From an uncultured Methylococcaceae bacterium (GTDB lineage: Bacteria; Pseudomonadota; Gammaproteobacteria; Methylococcales; Methylomonadaceae), in assembly GCA_903863905.1 (NCBI GenBank), contig CAIPDT010000101.1:1-32918 (forward strand): DNA of 32,918 nucleotides. Reading direction: 5' to 3'. Shown here piece after piece: positions 3,022 to 31,185 of the stretch. How positions within the stretch are numbered: the first letter of the stretch is position 1; every line of letters starts with the position of its first letter. The notes under the pieces were generated by a model, which was not told the origin of the DNA, searched no databases, and saw only the letters and a list, made by a program, of their open reading frames with translations. A program made the translations under genes and the position numbers.

Positions 3022-3750
3022 ATGAATCGCGAATATCACAGGTGGTGGAGTCAGGCGTTACAACGCGATATGGAGTGTTTGGTATTTGGTCATGCAGGCG
3101 CTAAAGTCTTGGTGTTTCCGTCACGTTTTGGGCGTTTTTATGAGTATGAAAATTTAGGACTCGTTAAGACTTTAAAAGATAAGATAGAGGCGGGCTATTT
3201 GCAGTTATATTGTGTCGATAGTGTGGATGTTGAGAGTCTTTATTGTGGATTGGCGCATCCCTCAGAACGTATTTCTCGTCATATCGCTTTTGAGAAATAT
3301 ATCTTGGATGAAATGGTGCCTTTTATGCAAAGTAAAAATTCGCATGAATGTATTATTTCTCATGGGGTTAGTTTAGGGGCTTTTCATGCGGCAAATGTTG
3401 CTTTTAGAAATCCACATTTGTTTAAAAAGTTAGTGGCTTTCTCAGGGCGTTATGATTTGACTCTCAATGTCGAGTTTTTTAATGATTTATTTGATGGGTT
3501 TTATAATGAGGATATTTATTTTCACACGCCTAGTCATTTTTTACCCAATTTAGAATGTGCACAGCGCTTAGATCAATTAAGAGAGATGGACATCACGCTC
3601 GTGATTGGTCGAGAAGATCCTTTTTTACAAAATAATCAACAATTGAGTGAAATATTAAACCAAAAAAATATTAATCATCAATTATTGATTTGGGATGATA
3701 GGGCGCACAGTGGCTATTATTGGCGCCGCATGGCCCCACTTTATATCTGA
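3022..3750 (+). CDS. Putative esterase, alpha/beta hydrolase fold
   Basis: 242 residues from the ATG that gives MNREYHRWWS, a start typical of this esterase family; a TTG four codons upstream is possible but less convincing. Visible features are VLVFPS in the first core strand, HGVSLGAF with nucleophile S117, a probable acid at D199 in REDPF, and H229 in RAHSGYYW. It belongs to the esterase-D/PHB-depolymerase-like group (PF00756-like), often annotated only as esterase. It has no signal peptide. It follows the AXE1-like gene after about 50 nt on the same strand and may be co-transcribed with it. Substrate unknown. Confidence 0.8.
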   Translation: MNREYHRWWSQALQRDMECLVFGHAGAKVLVFPSRFGRFYEYENLGLVKTLKDKIEAGYLQLYCVDSVDVESLYCGLAHPSERISRHIAFEKYILDEMVPFMQSKNSHECIISHGVSLGAFHAANVAFRNPHLFKKLVAFSGRYDLTLNVEFFNDLFDGFYNEDIYFHTPSHFLPNLECAQRLDQLREMDITLVIGREDPFLQNNQQLSEILNQKNINHQLLIWDDRAHSGYYWRRMAPLYI

Positions 3751-3833
3751 TTTTAGTTTGAATAAACGATAGCTTGAACACATTTAGTTGAGGCGATTGA
3801 TTAATAGTGATTTCAAATAGTTGAAAAAGTCTT

Positions 3834-3839
3834 TATAAT
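3834..3839 (+). promoter_or_regulatory. Probable -10 box of the rpsF operon
   Basis: A perfect TATAAT stands about 87 nt upstream of the rpsF start codon, in the only intergenic space before the ribosomal operon. The expected -35 position (TTTCAA, 17-nt spacer) matches poorly. Transcription would begin near 3846 and give a leader of about 80 nt carrying the S6:S18-like hairpin. Confidence 0.55.
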
Positions 3840-3840
3840 G

Positions 3841-3866
3841 CGCGGTTCTACGGAGCATACCGCTCC
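3841..3866 (+). promoter_or_regulatory. rpsF leader hairpin resembling the S6:S18 motif
   Basis: GGAGC and GCTCC (5 bp) enclose a loop holding ATACC followed by G, so the RNA presents AUACCG. The same AUACCG follows GGAG in helix 23 of 16S rRNA, where S18 and S6 bind. An alternative 5-bp pairing, GCGGT with ACCGC, overlaps it and could be a competing fold. Leaders of rpsF in many bacteria carry a structured element with a conserved CCG that binds the S6:S18 complex for autoregulation; position and content here match. The overall fold is inferred by eye. Confidence 0.55.
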
Positions 3867-3925
3867 TCCTTGCTTTACCTTCTTTTTAAGACAAGAGAGG
3901 GAAGGCTTAACCGAAAGGAAAAATA

Positions 3926-4387
3926 ATGCGACATTATGAAATTGTCTTTTTAGTCCATCCGGACCAATCAGCTCAGGTTCCTGCAATGATTGACCGATAT
4001 AAGTCAACTATTGAAGCTGGATCTGGCACTATTCATCGTTTGGAAGATTGGGGTCGTAGACACCTTGCTTATCCAATTAGAAAAATTCATAAAGCACATT
4101 ATGTGTTAATGAATGTTGAAATTGATCAAGCAACTTTAGAAGAATTAGAAAGTGGTTTTCGTTTCAATGACGCTATCTTACGTAGTATGACTTTATTACA
4201 AAAAGAAGCTGTTACTGAACCGTCTACTATTGCCACTTCAACTGCTGAAGAAAATAAAGTAGCTGAATCCAGAGCAAAAGACGCAGCTGCTAGAGAAGCA
4301 GTTGTAGTACCAGCGACAGGCGATCTTGACGACGAGGTCGACTTAGACGACGTTGATTTCGACGCTGACGAAATTATTGCTGATTAA
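3926..4387 (+). CDS. rpsF: 30S ribosomal protein bS6
   Basis: Small-subunit protein S6, partner of S18 on the platform of the 30S subunit. The start [15 protein letters not shown] and the central [12 protein letters not shown] and [10 protein letters not shown] segments are diagnostic. The conserved domain ends near residue 97. Residues 98-153 are a long tail, first Ala/Glu/Thr-rich and then strongly acidic with Asp repeats, longer than the tail of E. coli S6 (131 residues), which also ends in acidic residues added to by glutamate ligation. AAAGGAAA precedes the ATG. First gene of an operon with rpsR, a DUF2232 gene and rplI. Confidence 0.97.
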
Positions 4388-4419
4388 TACGACAACTTAT
4401 TTGGATTCAGGAAATTATT

Positions 4420-4647
4420 ATGGCACGTAACATTAGACGCAAAAAATTCTGCAGATTCAGTGCAGAAGGCGGCACTCAGATTGATTATAAAGATCTGGAT
4501 TTATTAAGCGATTACATTACTGAAACTGGCAAAATTGTACCAAGCCGGATTACAGGAACTAGCGCAAAATATCAAAGACAACTTTGTGTTGCAATTAAAC
4601 GCGCGCGTTTTATTGCTTTGTTGCCTTTCTGCGACGCACACAAATAA
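4420..4647 (+). CDS. rpsR: 30S ribosomal protein bS18
   Basis: 75 residues, the normal length for S18. Diagnostic segments are [34 protein letters not shown] and a basic C-terminus [11 protein letters not shown]. It binds S6 and 16S helix 23 in the 30S platform. It lies 32 nt after rpsF, with AGGAAATT before the ATG, and is followed by the DUF2232 gene, as in many gammaproteobacteria and in keeping with joint control by the leader. Confidence 0.97.
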
Positions 4648-25951: not shown

Positions 25952-28009
25952 TCAGACGCGTGGCTTTAGCCATAACGTAAGTGAACGACATAAGTCATTT
26001 ATGTTTATAGGCTTGCAGATAAAATCAGTCATGCCAGCATTCATGCAATTATTACGTTCTTCTTCAGTTACGCCAGCGCTTAGAGCAATGATCGGTAGTT
26101 CTGCAAACCTTCTTTGCCGTTGTATCAGCCTAGTGGCTTCAAGACCATTCACGATGGGCATATGAATATCCATTAACACGGCATCAAAATGCTGTAACTC
26201 TAAGTGCTCCATTGCCTCCAAACCGTTATCAGCACTTACAATTTCAGCCCCTAATTCATTCAGATATTCATGGAGTAACAGTTGAGTCGCCTGATTATCG
26301 TCTACCACCAAAATTCGACGGCCTTTAAACATCGTTGAATCTAATTTTTTGTGCGTTGTCTCGGTGCTCTCAGTTAAGTTATCCGTGTACCCTATAGCGT
26401 TATTAATGAGAGGAAATTGTAAAGAAAAGCTAAATGTACTGCCTTGACCAATGTCACTAACAACAGAGATTTCACCCCCCATCAGCGTTACTAATTCCTT
26501 ACTAATGACCAAACCTAAGCCAGTGCCACCATATTGCCTAGAAATAGAGCCATCCACTTGACTAAATTCTATAAATAACTTATGTTGATCCGCAAGGGAA
26601 ATACCAATGCCGGTATCGCTCACCGAAAATAATATCTGTACGTGTAAGGGAGTTAACACTTGCAGGGTTACGTTTAGCTTGACGTCACCTTGCGAGGTAA
26701 ATTTAACTGCATTACCGACTAAATTAATCAGTACTTGTTGCAACCTGAGTTTATCGCCTACCAATTCATAAGGGAGAAGGTTATCACGTGTAATCGTGAA
26801 CGTCAGTCCTTTTTGTTGTGCTGAGCCAGAAAAAAGTGTGTTAATAAAACCTAGCAGATCCAGAATATTAAAGGGGATCGCCTCAATGCTCACACAACCG
26901 GCTTCTAGCTTCGTAAAATTAAGGATGTCTTCCAATATACCTAGTAGGCTAGTAGCAGCGATATTGATTTTTTCGACATAACCCTTAACTTTTGCAGACA
27001 TATCTTGATACAACGCTAGCTCAGAAAAACCGATGATAGCGGTCATAGGCGTGCGAATCTCATGCGACATACTGGCTATGAATTGCGATTTTAGGGTTGA
27101 AAAACGCTCTGCTTTTTCTTTAGCTTCTATTAAACCAAGTTTATAAACATTAAACAGGCTAATGTCCTGATAGGTACTCACATAATGCGTAATGTAGCCA
27201 TGAGTATTTTTTACAGCACTAACCGTGAGATATTCTTGATATACATCACCATTTTTACGTTGGCTCCAGAGTTCGCCAGCCCACTCTCCGGTGTCTTTAA
27301 TGGTTTTTTTAAATAAGTTATAAAACTCAATCGTATTGGCAGGCGAGTCTAGCATGTTACAATCCTGGCCAATCACTTCTATTTCTTCATAGCCAGTGAG
27401 TTTAGTGAAAGCCGCATTGACTCGAAGTATCGTGCCATCAACAGCACAGATGGTCATCGGTAAGTTTGTTTCGAAGGCAATCCCCGCAATCGCTAAATTC
27501 TGTTCGGATAGCTTTTGTTCAGAAATATCTATGCCGAAATAAACGATCCGTTCGAGTTGATGATCACAATCAAAAATATCAAAGGTATTCCAAGAAATAA
27601 TTTTATTATTTCCATCCACACTGACTAGTTTGGTTTGATAATCAATTAACTCACTGTTATTAATAAAGTCAACGCATAGCTGATCACTAGTATTAAAATC
27701 AAAGGGTTTGATAACTTCAAAGCAACTACTATCCAGTAGATTTTGAACAGGAATGCCAGTGAGTTGACTCGTGATTTCGTTGCAATAGATAATCTTGCCT
27801 GTGACGGTTAGTTCTAGCACCACTATGCCCAACCGATTAATGAGCGAGCGATAGCGTGCTTCCGAAAAAGGCACGCTAAAACGCGCATCTCCCACTAACA
27901 AAGGACCATAAGACGTTAATATGGCGTCAATACCAGAATCCTTTAGGTCGTCACTAATGAGTTCTAAGTTACTGACTGCTTGCAGAATCTTTTTATCTAT
28001 TGGGATCAT
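25952..28009 (-). CDS. PAS-PAS hybrid histidine kinase, KaiBC-linked
   Basis: 685 residues, no membrane segment, so cytoplasmic. Residues 1-50 are unassigned; PAS 1 about 52-165 (VVLELTVTGKIIYCNEITSQLTGI); PAS 2 with PAC about 174-288; a short coiled linker; HisKA with phosphoacceptor H316 in SMSHEIRTPM; HATPase with N box LINLVGNAVKF (429-437), G1 DTGIGI (465-470) and G2 GGTGLGL (494-500). A receiver follows at about 564-680, with D570/D571, phosphoacceptor D614 in LMDIHMP and K666. No output domain, so phosphate must go on to another protein. Its ATG overlaps the kaiB stop by 4 nt, which makes it the likely output of KaiBC. It lacks the KaiB-like sensor domain of cyanobacterial SasA. Confidence 0.92.
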   Translation of the reverse strand: MIPIDKKILQAVSNLELISDDLKDSGIDAILTSYGPLLVGDARFSVPFSEARYRSLINRLGIVVLELTVTGKIIYCNEITSQLTGIPVQNLLDSSCFEVIKPFDFNTSDQLCVDFINNSELIDYQTKLVSVDGNNKIISWNTFDIFDCDHQLERIVYFGIDISEQKLSEQNLAIAGIAFETNLPMTICAVDGTILRVNAAFTKLTGYEEIEVIGQDCNMLDSPANTIEFYNLFKKTIKDTGEWAGELWSQRKNGDVYQEYLTVSAVKNTHGYITHYVSTYQDISLFNVYKLGLIEAKEKAERFSTLKSQFIASMSHEIRTPMTAIIGFSELALYQDMSAKVKGYVEKINIAATSLLGILEDILNFTKLEAGCVSIEAIPFNILDLLGFINTLFSGSAQQKGLTFTITRDNLLPYELVGDKLRLQQVLINLVGNAVKFTSQGDVKLNVTLQVLTPLHVQILFSVSDTGIGISLADQHKLFIEFSQVDGSISRQYGGTGLGLVISKELVTLMGGEISVVSDIGQGSTFSFSLQFPLINNAIGYTDNLTESTETTHKKLDSTMFKGRRILVVDDNQATQLLLHEYLNELGAEIVSADNGLEAMEHLELQHFDAVLMDIHMPIVNGLEATRLIQRQRRFAELPIIALSAGVTEEERNNCMNAGMTDFICKPININDLCRSLTLWLKPRV

Positions 28010-28314
28010 ATCAGTACATTGCTAAGTTGTTCTTTATCGCTCAAATTACCCATCATCTTGACCTGGGGTAGTGGCGATATTCGCAATAGCATAGGCGTTG
28101 CCGTCACGCCATCGTTCCAGGCTTGCTCTGGAGATAACAACACATCAATTAGCTTAAGTTGATAATCATTGCCGTAATGATTATCACAAAATACTTTTAT
28201 ATTACGTTGAGCTAGTACAGAGTTGGCTGACTCACCCGCAATATATAAATGGAATACGTGGCTTGAAATATTGAACACCTCATTCTGTTTTGGTCTTATA
28301 TTTAACGTATTCAT
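28006..28314 (-). CDS. kaiB: KaiB-family protein
   Basis: 102 residues, the KaiB length. FHLYIAGESANSVLAQRNIK forms the first strand and helix, KLIDVLLSPEQAWNDGVTATP matches the conserved VIDVL and ATP segment, and PLPQVKMMGNLSDKEQL matches the PLPVRRIIGDLSDRE region, which in cyanobacterial KaiB takes part in fold switching. KaiB binds the CI ring of KaiC and, in cyanobacteria, sequesters KaiA and recruits kinases. Four-nt overlaps with kaiC and the kinase show tight coupling. The C-terminal tail is shorter than in Synechococcus KaiB. Clock function is not implied: non-cyanobacterial KaiB proteins are also tied to stress responses. Confidence 0.94.
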   Translation of the reverse strand: MNTLNIRPKQNEVFNISSHVFHLYIAGESANSVLAQRNIKVFCDNHYGNDYQLKLIDVLLSPEQAWNDGVTATPMLLRISPLPQVKMMGNLSDKEQLSNVLI

Positions 28315-30041
28315 TGACCGTGGGGCATTGAAGGTTGACTATCATCACCAGAACGTTTACTCCATAACTCATCACGAGTCGTATCTATATGGCCAAGGCG
28401 CGTGGCTTCGGTAGCCAATAATAATTCTAACTCTTTCTGCTTGACAGCTAAATCCACCTGCAAAATCTCAACGCGAGCATTCACTTCATTTTGGGCAAGT
28501 TCGATCACTCGGCGTTTATACTCAACATTGGCCAACAGTAATTGTTCGGCCGCTATTTCAGCTTGTTCTTTTTGCCATCTGGCGGTGCCCATGAGTACTT
28601 CGCCATTCGATTGATAAACATCTGCTAGCGTAATACCTTGGGCATCTATAATCAGTTCACGCACTTGATTGGAATGCTCACTACCTCGTGACTTGATAAT
28701 CGATAAGGCTCGATTACGTTCGCCACCCAGTATCGAATAACTGATATGAATCCAGGTGTCTGCTACCGCTGAAATTTGAATGCCCGTTTCTTCATTTAGT
28801 GAGTCACCGCCATTACCCAGTAAACTGGTACAGAGTAAGGTAATGCCATTTGATTTAGTTAGGGTTAATATTTTTTCAGGCATGCGTCTACGACTATCAC
28901 CTTCGCTATGAACAATGGCAGAGAGTGGGTCAATGACAAAACATTGCGGCTGGTATAATTCAATCAACTTGCGCAAGTTTCCGACCTGCTCTTCGGTGCC
29001 CGCTAAACTACTGCGTATAGATTCAATATGCAGTAACCCACTTTGGACATGCTTTATTAAGTCAATGTTAACGGACATCAAGTTACGGACAATTTCACTA
29101 ACGGATTCATCAAAACTGACATACAGGCAGCGTTCACCGCGCTCACAAGCCGCGCTCATAAAGATACCGCACAAAGTCGATTTTGATGTGCCAGGGGCGC
29201 CGCTTAATAATATCGCCGAGCCTCTATAATAACCACCACCTAACATACTATCTAGGCGAGGCACACCCGAGGAAACACGAGCGCTGGTGGCAAGTTGATC
29301 TTCCGACTTTTCCGGAAAGGCGATGATCTCAGCGCCTTTTTCACCCAACAATAAGGTCACTTCACCCGAATAAAAACCAGAGCCACGGTATTTAACAACC
29401 CGGAGTGAGCGGTGCGCGACCCTATCTTCCATTTCATGCGTCAGTTGAATGACGCAATCAACCATGTATTGCATGAAATCTTTATAATCGAGTCCGGACA
29501 AGCCTGAATCATTGTTTTTGCAGGTGACAATGCCGGTCATGTTATTACTTACTAGCCAGTCGTTGAGTCTAAATAACTCACGGCGCTCAGCCTTAGGATT
29601 ATCGAGTAGCGACAGCAGCACATCGATAGAATCAAACACGATCCGTTTAGCGCTGATTTGATCTGACTTAGCTTTAAGCATTGCGAGCAGTCCGGTTAGA
29701 TCAAAATCACCGGCCCAAATATCTTCTGGACGCGGTTTACCGTCTAAGAAAAACAACTCTTTATTTTCTAGATCAGGCAAATCCCAGCCAAAAGTAGCCG
29801 CATTGGTTACAATACGCTTAGCATCTTCTTCAAAGGCGACAAAAATACCCGCCTCACCATTTTTGGCACCATCAACCAAAATTTGTAAAGCCAGTACCGT
29901 TTTTCCGCAACCAGGACCACCTGTTAGTAGGGTACATCGACCTTGCGGTAAGCCACCATTAGTGATCTCATCGAGTCCGCGAATACCTGTGAGCGTTTTA
30001 TTAAGTTCAATTCGCTTCTTAGAGGGCATAGTGGTAGCCAT
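28311..30041 (-). CDS. kaiC: KaiC-family double RecA ATPase
   Basis: 576 residues from the ATG giving MATTMPSKKRIEL; an ATG 25 codons upstream adds only low-complexity repeats and would place the likely promoter inside the gene. CI: Walker A GGPGCGKT (41-48), catalytic E71-E72 in AFEED, Walker B D137. CII: Walker A GAPGTSKST (281-289), Walker B D371; the CII catalytic pair is Asp-Glu (D311-E312). At the phosphosite loop IST of Synechococcus KaiC the sequence is ISAVADT, so S424 is kept and the second site is Ala. Residues about 488-560 form a coiled-coil tail. CI resembles KaiC subfamilies outside cyanobacteria. First gene of kaiC-kaiB-kinase; no kaiA. Confidence 0.94.
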   Translation of the reverse strand: MATTMPSKKRIELNKTLTGIRGLDEITNGGLPQGRCTLLTGGPGCGKTVLALQILVDGAKNGEAGIFVAFEEDAKRIVTNAATFGWDLPDLENKELFFLDGKPRPEDIWAGDFDLTGLLAMLKAKSDQISAKRIVFDSIDVLLSLLDNPKAERRELFRLNDWLVSNNMTGIVTCKNNDSGLSGLDYKDFMQYMVDCVIQLTHEMEDRVAHRSLRVVKYRGSGFYSGEVTLLLGEKGAEIIAFPEKSEDQLATSARVSSGVPRLDSMLGGGYYRGSAILLSGAPGTSKSTLCGIFMSAACERGERCLYVSFDESVSEIVRNLMSVNIDLIKHVQSGLLHIESIRSSLAGTEEQVGNLRKLIELYQPQCFVIDPLSAIVHSEGDSRRRMPEKILTLTKSNGITLLCTSLLGNGGDSLNEETGIQISAVADTWIHISYSILGGERNRALSIIKSRGSEHSNQVRELIIDAQGITLADVYQSNGEVLMGTARWQKEQAEIAAEQLLLANVEYKRRVIELAQNEVNARVEILQVDLAVKQKELELLLATEATRLGHIDTTRDELWSKRSGDDSQPSMPHGQ

Positions 30042-30050
30042 AGTTATAGT

Positions 30051-30086
30051 GTTTAGAATGGAGTCATTGTTTAGAGTAGAGTCATT
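30051..30086 (-). repeat. 18-bp tandem repeat at the 5' end of kaiC
   Basis: Two adjacent 18-bp copies of GTTTAGA(A/G)T(G/A)GAGTCATT differ at two positions. They lie immediately upstream of the chosen kaiC start, inside the alternative longer reading frame (where they encode NDSTLN and NDSILN). Confidence 0.7.
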
Positions 30087-30103
30087 ATTATAATAGACTC
30101 TAC
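30076..30103 (-). promoter_or_regulatory. Palindromic element with a TATAAT core, kaiC promoter
   Basis: GTAGAGTC and GACTCTAC form 8-bp arms around a 12-bp AT-only core. On the - strand the core contains TATAAT, which would start transcription near 30080 and leave about 40 nt before the kaiC ATG. The -35 position is poor, so an activator, or a repressor binding the palindrome, is likely. Function inferred. Confidence 0.5.
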
Positions 30104-30303
30104 AGAGGGCATTCATTATGTGGCGCCTGATTACCTATTCGAGTTTGAAACCATTATTCTAGGCATCCCAACACACTCTTTATTTAAGTGCGGAAAAATT
30201 AATTAACCTATATCTTTAGGTTTAAGAATAAATGATCATCGAACAGCTAAATACTGCGACTAGTTGATGCTAAGGTTAGTGCGTTTTTATAAATGCAATA
30301 GCC

Positions 30304-30350: not shown

Positions 30351-30458
30351 TCAATATTCTGGAAATAATTGAAAGGCAAGCCATGCCATAATACCTGCGA
30401 TGACTAATAAGGTTAATTTGATGTTTTTTAACGTGTTTGAGTCAAATTTTTTTAACAT
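30351..30458 (-). CDS. Small single-pass membrane protein, 35 aa
   Basis: Open frame of 35 residues: a basic start (MLKKFDSNTLKN), a hydrophobic helix about 13-32 (IKLTLLVIAGIMAWLAFQLF) and a short PEY end. TTGGAG stands 8 nt before the ATG, a good ribosome-binding site. The Lys-rich N-terminus favours an inside-in orientation in the inner membrane. It lies alone between kaiC and the exported peroxiredoxin gene. The family is not recognised. Confidence 0.6.
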   Translation of the reverse strand: MLKKFDSNTLKNIKLTLLVIAGIMAWLAFQLFPEY

Positions 30459-30651: not shown

Positions 30652-31185
30652 ATGGAAAAACAAAAATCTTTATTAAAAACGCTGATGTTCTGCTTGGCTT
30701 TATTACCCACTATGTCGGTTAAAGCTGAAAAATTATCCGTCGGTCAAGTTGCTCCGCAATTTGAGTTAAAAGCCCAAGACGGTAGTAGCCTTAATTTAGC
30801 GGATAGAAAAGAGAAAGGGTGGACGGTTTTATATTTTTATCCCAAAGCCGGAACCCCAGGTTGCACCACACAAGCCTGTGCTTATCGAGATGGGGTTAAT
30901 TTAATACGTAACCAAAATGCTGAGGTGTATGGCATTAGTACCGATGAGGTTAAAGATTTACAAGCGTTTCATGAGAAACATCGTTTAAATTTTACCTTGT
31001 TATCAGATGCTGAAGGTAAGGTGACAGAAGCTTATGGTGTAAAAATGCCGGTAGTGAATTTTGCTAAGCGTTGGACTTTTATTATCGACTCTAATTTGGT
31101 TATTCGTTATATAGATGATGACGTTGATCCGGTTTTGGATGCTAAGAAAGTAGCGGAAGAAATTGCTAGATTAAAAGCTGGGTAG
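30652..31185 (+). CDS. Exported peroxiredoxin, BCP/PrxQ type
   Basis: 177 residues. A signal peptide (basic MEKQKSLLK, hydrophobic core, cut after VKA at 25) sends it to the periplasm. The peroxidatic C71 lies in YPKAGTPGCTTQACAYRD with C76 as resolving Cys five residues on, the classical atypical 2-Cys arrangement that the cytosolic member of this window lacks. NFTLLSDAEGKV, GVKMPVV and RWTFIIDSNLVI complete the fold. It needs a reductant in the periplasm, probably a thioredoxin-like protein from elsewhere. Stand-alone gene with its own promoter. Confidence 0.92.
   Translation: MEKQKSLLKTLMFCLALLPTMSVKAEKLSVGQVAPQFELKAQDGSSLNLADRKEKGWTVLYFYPKAGTPGCTTQACAYRDGVNLIRNQNAEVYGISTDEVKDLQAFHEKHRLNFTLLSDAEGKVTEAYGVKMPVVNFAKRWTFIIDSNLVIRYIDDDVDPVLDAKKVAEEIARLKAG

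Follow-up and report, generated by a model that had tools for sequence, protein, structure and literature searches.

The question of how Kai proteins outside the cyanobacteria transmit their state is raised by a stretch of 32,918 nucleotides (the window) from an uncultured Methylococcaceae bacterium (GenBank assembly GCA_903863905.1, contig CAIPDT010000101.1), in which kaiC, kaiB and a gene for a PAS-PAS-HisKA-HATPase-receiver protein constitute one minus-strand operon of three open reading frames (ORFs). The product of the third gene begins with a short element, here called the leader, which is shared by the third genes of comparable operons from many phyla. Judged from genome context and sequence comparison, the operon would, by a narrow preference, be a Kai module lacking KaiA, and would gate its signalling protein through docking of the leader on KaiB or on KaiB-KaiC.

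The operon itself is real and of an already known kind. The kaiC/kaiB and kaiB/kinase junctions are each a 4-nucleotide ATGA overlap, and the preliminary description of a KaiC-KaiB-hybrid kinase operon with such overlaps was corroborated by the ORFs, by the Pfam and NCBIfam domains and by both junctions. The arrangement is not due to chance, since the unit recurs at seven further loci of the genus (one with a KaiC remnant only) and at 67 of the 80 KaiC loci from named genomes, these being the best 80 of a longer list, KaiB comes shortly after KaiC. The host is a relative of Methylobacter psychrophilus (the M. psychrophilus locus L084, whose third gene is of the GGDEF-EAL form, and genome G034 show the equivalent locus), and its genome comprises 2.79 Mb in 179 contigs with a stated completeness of 99.98%. 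A search of this genome for KaiA (PF07688), which had been described as absent, gave no match; among 14 control genomes the same search finds KaiA in Synechococcus elongatus only. Both the gene order and the lack of a detected kaiA are those of the kaiC-kaiB-PAS/histidine kinase operons. Novelty of the layout was considered and rejected, as such operons without kaiA, and their GGDEF/EAL variants, are already in print (PMC4794148, PMC3164672; papers are cited here and below for particular sections of their text). The kaiC-B-PAS/histidine kinase operon was described in Rhodobacter sphaeroides and Rhodopseudomonas palustris in 2016 (PMC4794148), while according to the 2011 Ramlibacter paper the next gene downstream of almost all kaiC-kaiB clusters outside cyanobacteria encodes a histidine kinase or a GGDEF/EAL protein (PMC3164672). 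The existence of such loci outside cyanobacteria had been noted in the preliminary description; they are known from Rhodopseudomonas, Rhodobacter and many other bacteria (PMC4794148, PMC3164672).

The leader pattern occupies the first ~55 residues of the third-gene products and consists of a helix, the motif A-I-R-x-G-E-V-D-A and a stretch ending in Y-R, after which a PAS domain follows. The window carries a diverged form, L-K-D-S-G-I-D-A ... S-E-A-R-Y-R, where S-G-I-D-A replaces G-x-V-D-A and the S-E-x-R-Y-R end recurs in its KaiC relatives L086, L089 and L151. A leader common to kaiB-linked third genes looks new; literature searches on Kai, judged by titles and abstract openings and with subscription journals thinly covered, brought up no paper that we recognised as dealing with it. 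Two sequence models were built, the first from 66 third genes and the second (A5) from 29 rows, window included. Counts on model-building rows are partly circular, and untrained counts are therefore given separately, with L130, which is identical to training row L063, counted as trained. In a whole-genome search the window leader scored 50.5 bits (E=4.6e-13) with A5, among whose 29 rows it figures, and 34.8 bits with the first model. The features by which we propose to recognise the leader module, namely an N-terminal helix, G-x-[VI]-D-A and a hairpin in a protein encoded directly behind kaiB, are found in the window in diverged form. For the leader of L093, AlphaFold2 predicts a helix at residues 8-34 and a hairpin at 40-53, with a predicted local distance difference test score (pLDDT) of 66-97 by ten-residue block.

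The proteins headed by the leader are diverse. Among 58 of them, some cut by contig ends and with classes that may coincide in one protein, HATPase_c was found in 46, HisKA in 34, a receiver in 23, HisKA_3 in seven, HisKA_2 in six, HWE in four and GGDEF/EAL in two; in L137 the leader stands before HisKA_3 with no PAS match. Mean pairwise identity between rows is 46-49% in the leader versus 29% in the adjacent PAS domain. The operon of Cereibacter sphaeroides KD131 (plasmid record L232) also carries the leader (47 bits, in a row that had no part in the model). The possibility of a known domain was dropped for the leader, three leader stretches giving no Pfam match at E up to 1. In five other third genes the NCBIfam matches, among the best 25 per protein, begin at residue 49 or later, apart from a loose CckA match from residue 9 of L117, and the best PDB match of the leader by sequence (E=0.003) is to short stretches of unrelated proteins. 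Binding of the leader to the KaiC tail was likewise dropped as an explanation, the leader being present also where KaiC is almost tail-less (L062, L126, L138, L139).

The link of the leader with kaiB was assessed with A5 in a sample of the class (369 genomes) and one of the phylum (398), some genomes being in both. The class sample gave 13 matches in 12 genomes, of which nine are N-terminal and have KaiB directly upstream in nine of nine cases (in G125 a KaiB fragment); five of the nine, the window among them, helped to build A5 and four had not, and the remaining four matches, all weak (21-24 bits), lie inside their proteins and have no KaiB upstream. The phylum sample yielded ten matches, the window and nine that were not used for the model, again all with KaiB directly upstream. 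Together, 18 of 18 N-terminal leaders stand directly behind kaiB. In 45 named genomes bearing Kai genes, 44 matches were obtained in 43 genomes, and 41 of these are the leader of the examined Kai locus; two of the three others (G825, G842) follow the KaiB of an additional Kai locus, and the place of the third (G805, M. psychrophilus) corresponds to the second Kai locus of G034. A leader is present 24-381 nucleotides after the last KaiB at 59 of the 67 named loci with KaiB (37 of the 45 untrained), and at none of the ten named loci where KaiC occurs without KaiB and with enough sequence downstream (Fisher p=4e-8 for all and 1.5e-6 for untrained loci, uncorrected for kinship). In a comparison of five of the 16 plasmid records with KaiC, the leader was found in all three that are ordered kaiC, kaiB, signalling gene (L232, L233, L236), and the neighbouring signalling or hypothetical protein lacks it in L234 (kinase, kaiB, kaiC) and in L235 (no kaiB annotated). 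At L194 (G389:C105) a gene for a leader-GGDEF-EAL protein comes after kaiB; upstream of kaiB there is a GGDEF gene, and no KaiC was found on the contig.

Within the genus, what follows the leader changes. Loci of the window type occur at eight places in seven genomes (the window, L038, L039, L040, L041, L042, L043, L044), and their third gene encodes a kinase at six (L040 leaves its contig before the receiver) and a GGDEF-EAL protein at two (L038, L039). The three-gene order, which had been proposed as something to be sought in related genomes, recurs in the genus; the claim that the kinase is fixed to the Kai genes did not hold. The N-termini of both GGDEF-EAL proteins are 43-44% identical to the window kinase over its residues 21-284, and since this part is related while the kinase half gives way to GGDEF-EAL, the input half has been kept and the output half exchanged. 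Such an exchange of output behind a related N-terminus looks new. KaiB is present in 16 of the 61 genomes searched for it (the window's own, 34 of the genus and 26 of the family and order), and strong KaiC matches were found in 15 of the 35 genus genomes. One of these genomes, G028, has a KaiC match of 66% identity with one stop and no KaiB by the search. At L042 (G018:C195, 650-913) only ~60 KaiC residues precede kaiB, the frames of kaiB and the hybrid kinase being open, which may be a natural loss or an assembly error; at L046 KaiB, leader, PAS, GGDEF and EAL form one continuous frame, open at the contig end. Errors in metagenome-assembled genomes may account for this truncated KaiC, for the stop in the G028 frame and for the L046 fusion. 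A second Kai locus type (L045, L049-L052), found in the genus and in one order relative (L050), has two kaiB copies after kaiC and then a gene for a PAS-only, kinase or GGDEF-EAL protein, and its CII motifs are canonical. A third type in the genus (L047, L048) is ordered kaiB-kaiC with a GGDEF-EAL gene next, and gave no match by the first leader model. A Leu-Ala codon run upstream of KaiC at the contig start of L040 (3-130) is probably a DNA repeat.

The window KaiC consists of two KaiC/RecA modules (Pfam ATPase, E=1.1e-88). It scores 483.5 bits over residues 34-535 against the NCBIfam model of two-domain KaiC (PRK09302.1, cut-off 408) and 270.5 bits against circ_KaiC (TIGR02655), below the curated cut-off of 546.25, and its best PDB match by sequence is 8dba, the R. 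sphaeroides KaiC of PMC10076222 (E=1.7e-99). CI is canonical, with Walker A GGPGCGKT and the catalytic pair FEE. The features expected of CII in a phosphorylating KaiC are a Walker A motif GXXXXGK[ST] (GXXXXGKT in the relevant section of PMC5520375), a catalytic EE and two adjacent phosphorylatable residues; in their places the window has GAPGTSKST, D-E and S-A.

These alterations are shared with relatives. In a KaiC tree of 96 rows, made by a quick method without bootstrap, the window KaiC and 19 others form one group (support of 99 by the Shimodaira-Hasegawa-like approximate likelihood ratio test, SH-aLRT); since these 20 rows were chosen by their CII motifs beforehand, the tree tests only their grouping. 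Left out were L065 (incomplete, showing the CII motifs), the near-copies L053, L083 and L084, L100 and L101 (both cut) and 15 KaiC rows of distant type; long branches lead to L131, L147, L060 and L061. Ser or Ala replaces Gly before the Walker A Lys in all 20 clade rows, and Asp replaces the first catalytic Glu in 19 (L087 keeps Glu). The second phosphosite lacks Ser/Thr in seven, including the five complete kinase-type Methylobacter KaiCs, and the two GGDEF-EAL-type Methylobacter KaiCs of the clade retain S-T. Among the other 76 rows, Ala precedes Lys in three (L105, L119, L147), all of which keep the first Glu, and L069 is the one row without that Glu (Lys there). In G308, a genome of the same family in two contigs with a stated completeness of 100%, KaiC is in frame but lacks the residues equal to 258-415, the catalytic core of CII (L192 = G308:C1:384001-394000, 3229-4575), and kaiB and a GGDEF-EAL gene with a GEVD-type leader are retained behind this CII-less KaiC. 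The altered-CII clade looks new as well.

The window KaiB scores 62.3 bits with Pfam KaiB (gathering score 27) and 58.2 bits with the circadian KaiB model TIGR02654, under its curated cut-off of 145.3. Residues K57, G88 and D90 of S. elongatus KaiB were proposed as regulators of fold switching, and are said not to be highly conserved among cyanobacterial KaiB1 (both in the consulted sections of PMC5520375). The window has G, V and I at these positions; at all eight window-type loci K57 is replaced by G and D90 is replaced too, while G88 is kept in two of eight.

As had been supposed, the state of the Kai proteins would have to reach the kinase through a contact different from that of SasA, since by Pfam the kinase has no KaiB-like N-terminal sensor domain, its model showing a helix, a hairpin and PAS domains; the leader is proposed as this contact. 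For C. sphaeroides it is reported that KaiC forms dodecamers via its tail, that KaiB binds the post-hydrolysis CI and speeds the ATPase, and that the ATP/ADP ratio resets the system (sections of PMC10076222). By analogy, the KaiC ring of the window would hydrolyse ATP at the intact CI site, a step known for C. sphaeroides, and KaiB would bind CI after hydrolysis, favoured by ADP, as shown there. A surface of KaiB or KaiB-KaiC would then bind the leader, whereupon the next PAS domain and the output, here the hybrid kinase, would change activity, as genome context suggests; finally, the kinase would phosphorylate its own receiver and subsequently a further partner. With an altered CII site and only a single phosphosite, the interpretation as a clock loses weight. 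Because the clade's CII kinase site is altered and one of the two window phosphosites is gone, the module more probably reports the energy state than runs a two-site phosphorylation timer, and it would more likely be a CI-driven ATP/ADP switch than a timer of this kind. A wider proposal, which we hold only tentatively and with somewhat less than even confidence, is that the leader may be an undescribed KaiB-docking module joining KaiA-less Kai systems of bacteria and some archaea to four histidine kinase classes and to enzymes of cyclic di-GMP, and that the clade may have largely given up CII phosphorylation, its KaiB needing no fold switch, for a CI-driven energy-state switch. If so, a short portable kaiB-linked element would offer one testable contact for a large group of Kai systems, among them that of the Cereibacter operon, for which a solved KaiB-KaiC structure exists, and the altered-CII clade would dissociate the switching role of Kai proteins from their timekeeping role. 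The observation of the preliminary description is confirmed and its interpretation partly supported.

Several observations weigh against this picture. Nine of the ten loci without KaiB carry a distant KaiC type (25-28% identity to that of the window); the contrast in leader presence is therefore confounded, and the lack of a leader may reflect the type of KaiC and not the lack of KaiB. No leader was matched at eight of the 67 named KaiB loci (L085, L128, L131, L136, L142, L143, L144, L147), although at L085 a diverged form is visible by eye. Four altered-CII relatives (L057, L059, L060, L065) have a GGDEF-EAL or EAL gene preceding kaiC; no leader match was obtained at the first three of these, read whole, nor at L188 (G240) and L193 (G392), and around the KaiC of L087, a member of the clade, both KaiB and leader are missing. 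At L162 (2226-4901, minus strand) a strong leader protein follows a receiver gene instead of KaiB, and is oriented divergently from a kaiC that is truncated where the contig ends. For the window leader itself, AlphaFold2 gives a helix at residues 4-25 and an ill-defined hairpin (pLDDT 52-60). Asp for Glu and Ser for Gly may, moreover, still permit catalysis in CII, where the first phosphosite Ser is retained, and the leader could be inherited with the operon and merely dimerise the protein.

The last point belongs to the best of the other explanations, in which the leader is an ordinary N-terminal coiled coil with a PAS cap, the third genes go back to a single ancestral protein of the operon, the link to KaiB is one of descent only and KaiBC and the kinase may cooperate via another surface. 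The predicted long helix and hairpin before PAS suit such a view, and so do the weak matches given by short similar stretches inside unrelated proteins (L171-L174). We nevertheless consider it unlikely, as the leader is better conserved than PAS and is retained both without a PAS match (L137) and across changes of kinase class and output, and as the strong copies in the two genome samples and the 45 Kai-bearing genomes all stand behind KaiB except L162. Docking on KaiB or KaiB-KaiC remains preferred also over an input device, suggested for R. sphaeroides (in a section of PMC5520375), in which the PAS domains sense redox or a metabolite and the kinase acts on KaiBC; this is improbable, the appearance of c-di-GMP enzyme domains (GGDEF-EAL) behind a related N-terminus in two of eight orthologous loci being easier to read as a change of output. 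Very doubtful is a phosphorylation hourglass as in C. sphaeroides, where KaiC self-phosphorylates two CII sites and KaiB and the ATP/ADP ratio reset it: that KaiC is the best solved relative, with a similar tail and no KaiA, but in the window KaiC a single phosphosite is left, the first catalytic Glu is Asp and Walker A contains Ser, and in its relative G308 the CII core is deleted.

The closest known systems are the operons of R. palustris and R. (Cereibacter) sphaeroides, with which the window shares the gene order (PMC4794148), the lack of KaiA in the studied KaiBC system and the extended KaiC C-terminus (PMC4794148, PMC10076222). Their KaiCs have TSS or S413/S414 phosphosites and EE in CII, unlike the S-A and D-E of the window. 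The kinase of C. sphaeroides KD131 bears the leader too, but is annotated as HWE class, whereas that of the window is a HisKA hybrid with a receiver. The locus also resembles the first kaiC context in the Ramlibacter paper, where a gene for a histidine kinase or a GGDEF/EAL protein comes directly after kaiC-kaiB; the RtaNt of that paper, which was compared with KaiB and SasA, differs from the leader in being an N-terminal module of kinases beside kaiC without kaiB, and the section on kaiC contexts mentions no leader for kaiB-linked proteins (PMC3164672). In the kaiC1-kaiB2-kaiB1-kaiR1 locus of Methylobacterium extorquens AM1 a further gene likewise follows kaiB, although there are two KaiB copies and two conserved serines in KaiC1; deletion of kaiC1 alters ultraviolet resistance there (sections of PMC8069551). 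Like cyanobacterial SasA, the window kinase is proposed to be a histidine kinase reading the Kai state, with a helix-hairpin leader and PAS domains in place of the KaiB-like N-terminal domain of SasA (PMC3164672). The kai operon of Legionella pneumophila is linked to stress response, as summarised in PMC5520375, and its KaiB-like protein is in the PDB (4kun, Lpp1115).

Features of the kai operon in the window, with positions on the whole stretch
Feature	Position	Strand	Remarks
kaiC, two-domain (CI, CII), C-terminal coiled-coil-like tail	28311..30041	-	start taken at ATG 30041
CII Walker A GAPGTSKST, Ser replaces Gly before Lys	29175..29201	-	Ser/Ala in 20/20 clade rows
CII catalytic pair F-D-E in place of F-E-E	29106..29114	-	first Glu is Asp in 19/20 clade rows
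CII phosphosite pair Ser-Ala, second site lost	28767..28772	-	aligned with R. sphaeroides S413/S414
C-terminal tail of KaiC following GTARW, 87 residues	28314..28574	-	sequence comparison
kaiB	28006..28314	-	102 residues
Hybrid sensor histidine kinase (PAS-PAS-HisKA-HATPase-receiver)	25952..28009	-	685 residues, Pfam
N-terminal leader of kinase, residues 1-54, window form, GIDA at 26-29	27848..28009	-	leader model A5
PAS domain 1, residues 61-166 (Pfam match 66-166)	27512..27829	-	Pfam and structure model
PAS domain 2, residues 182-284	27158..27466	-	Pfam
HisKA domain, residues 307-371	26897..27091	-	Pfam
HATPase_c domain, residues 418-532	26414..26758	-	Pfam
Receiver domain, residues 566-676	25982..26314	-	Pfam

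The longest ORF of kaiC (28311-30116) has 601 residues; in-frame ATGs occur at the start chosen in the preliminary description and at 30029, and homologues start near these. That a further partner of the kinase must exist elsewhere in the genome was too strong a statement. Hpt and receiver searches of the host genome revealed no clear partner; they gave 35 receiver matches and a single Hpt match, which lies C-terminally in a different hybrid kinase, so that a partner is possible. The operon is flanked by a divergent AhpC/TSA-family gene (30652-31185) on one side and by tRNA-Leu and then a PilM-type gene on the other. Between kaiC and the AhpC/TSA-family gene there is a small open frame (30352-30458, minus strand), whose 35 residues include a single hydrophobic stretch.

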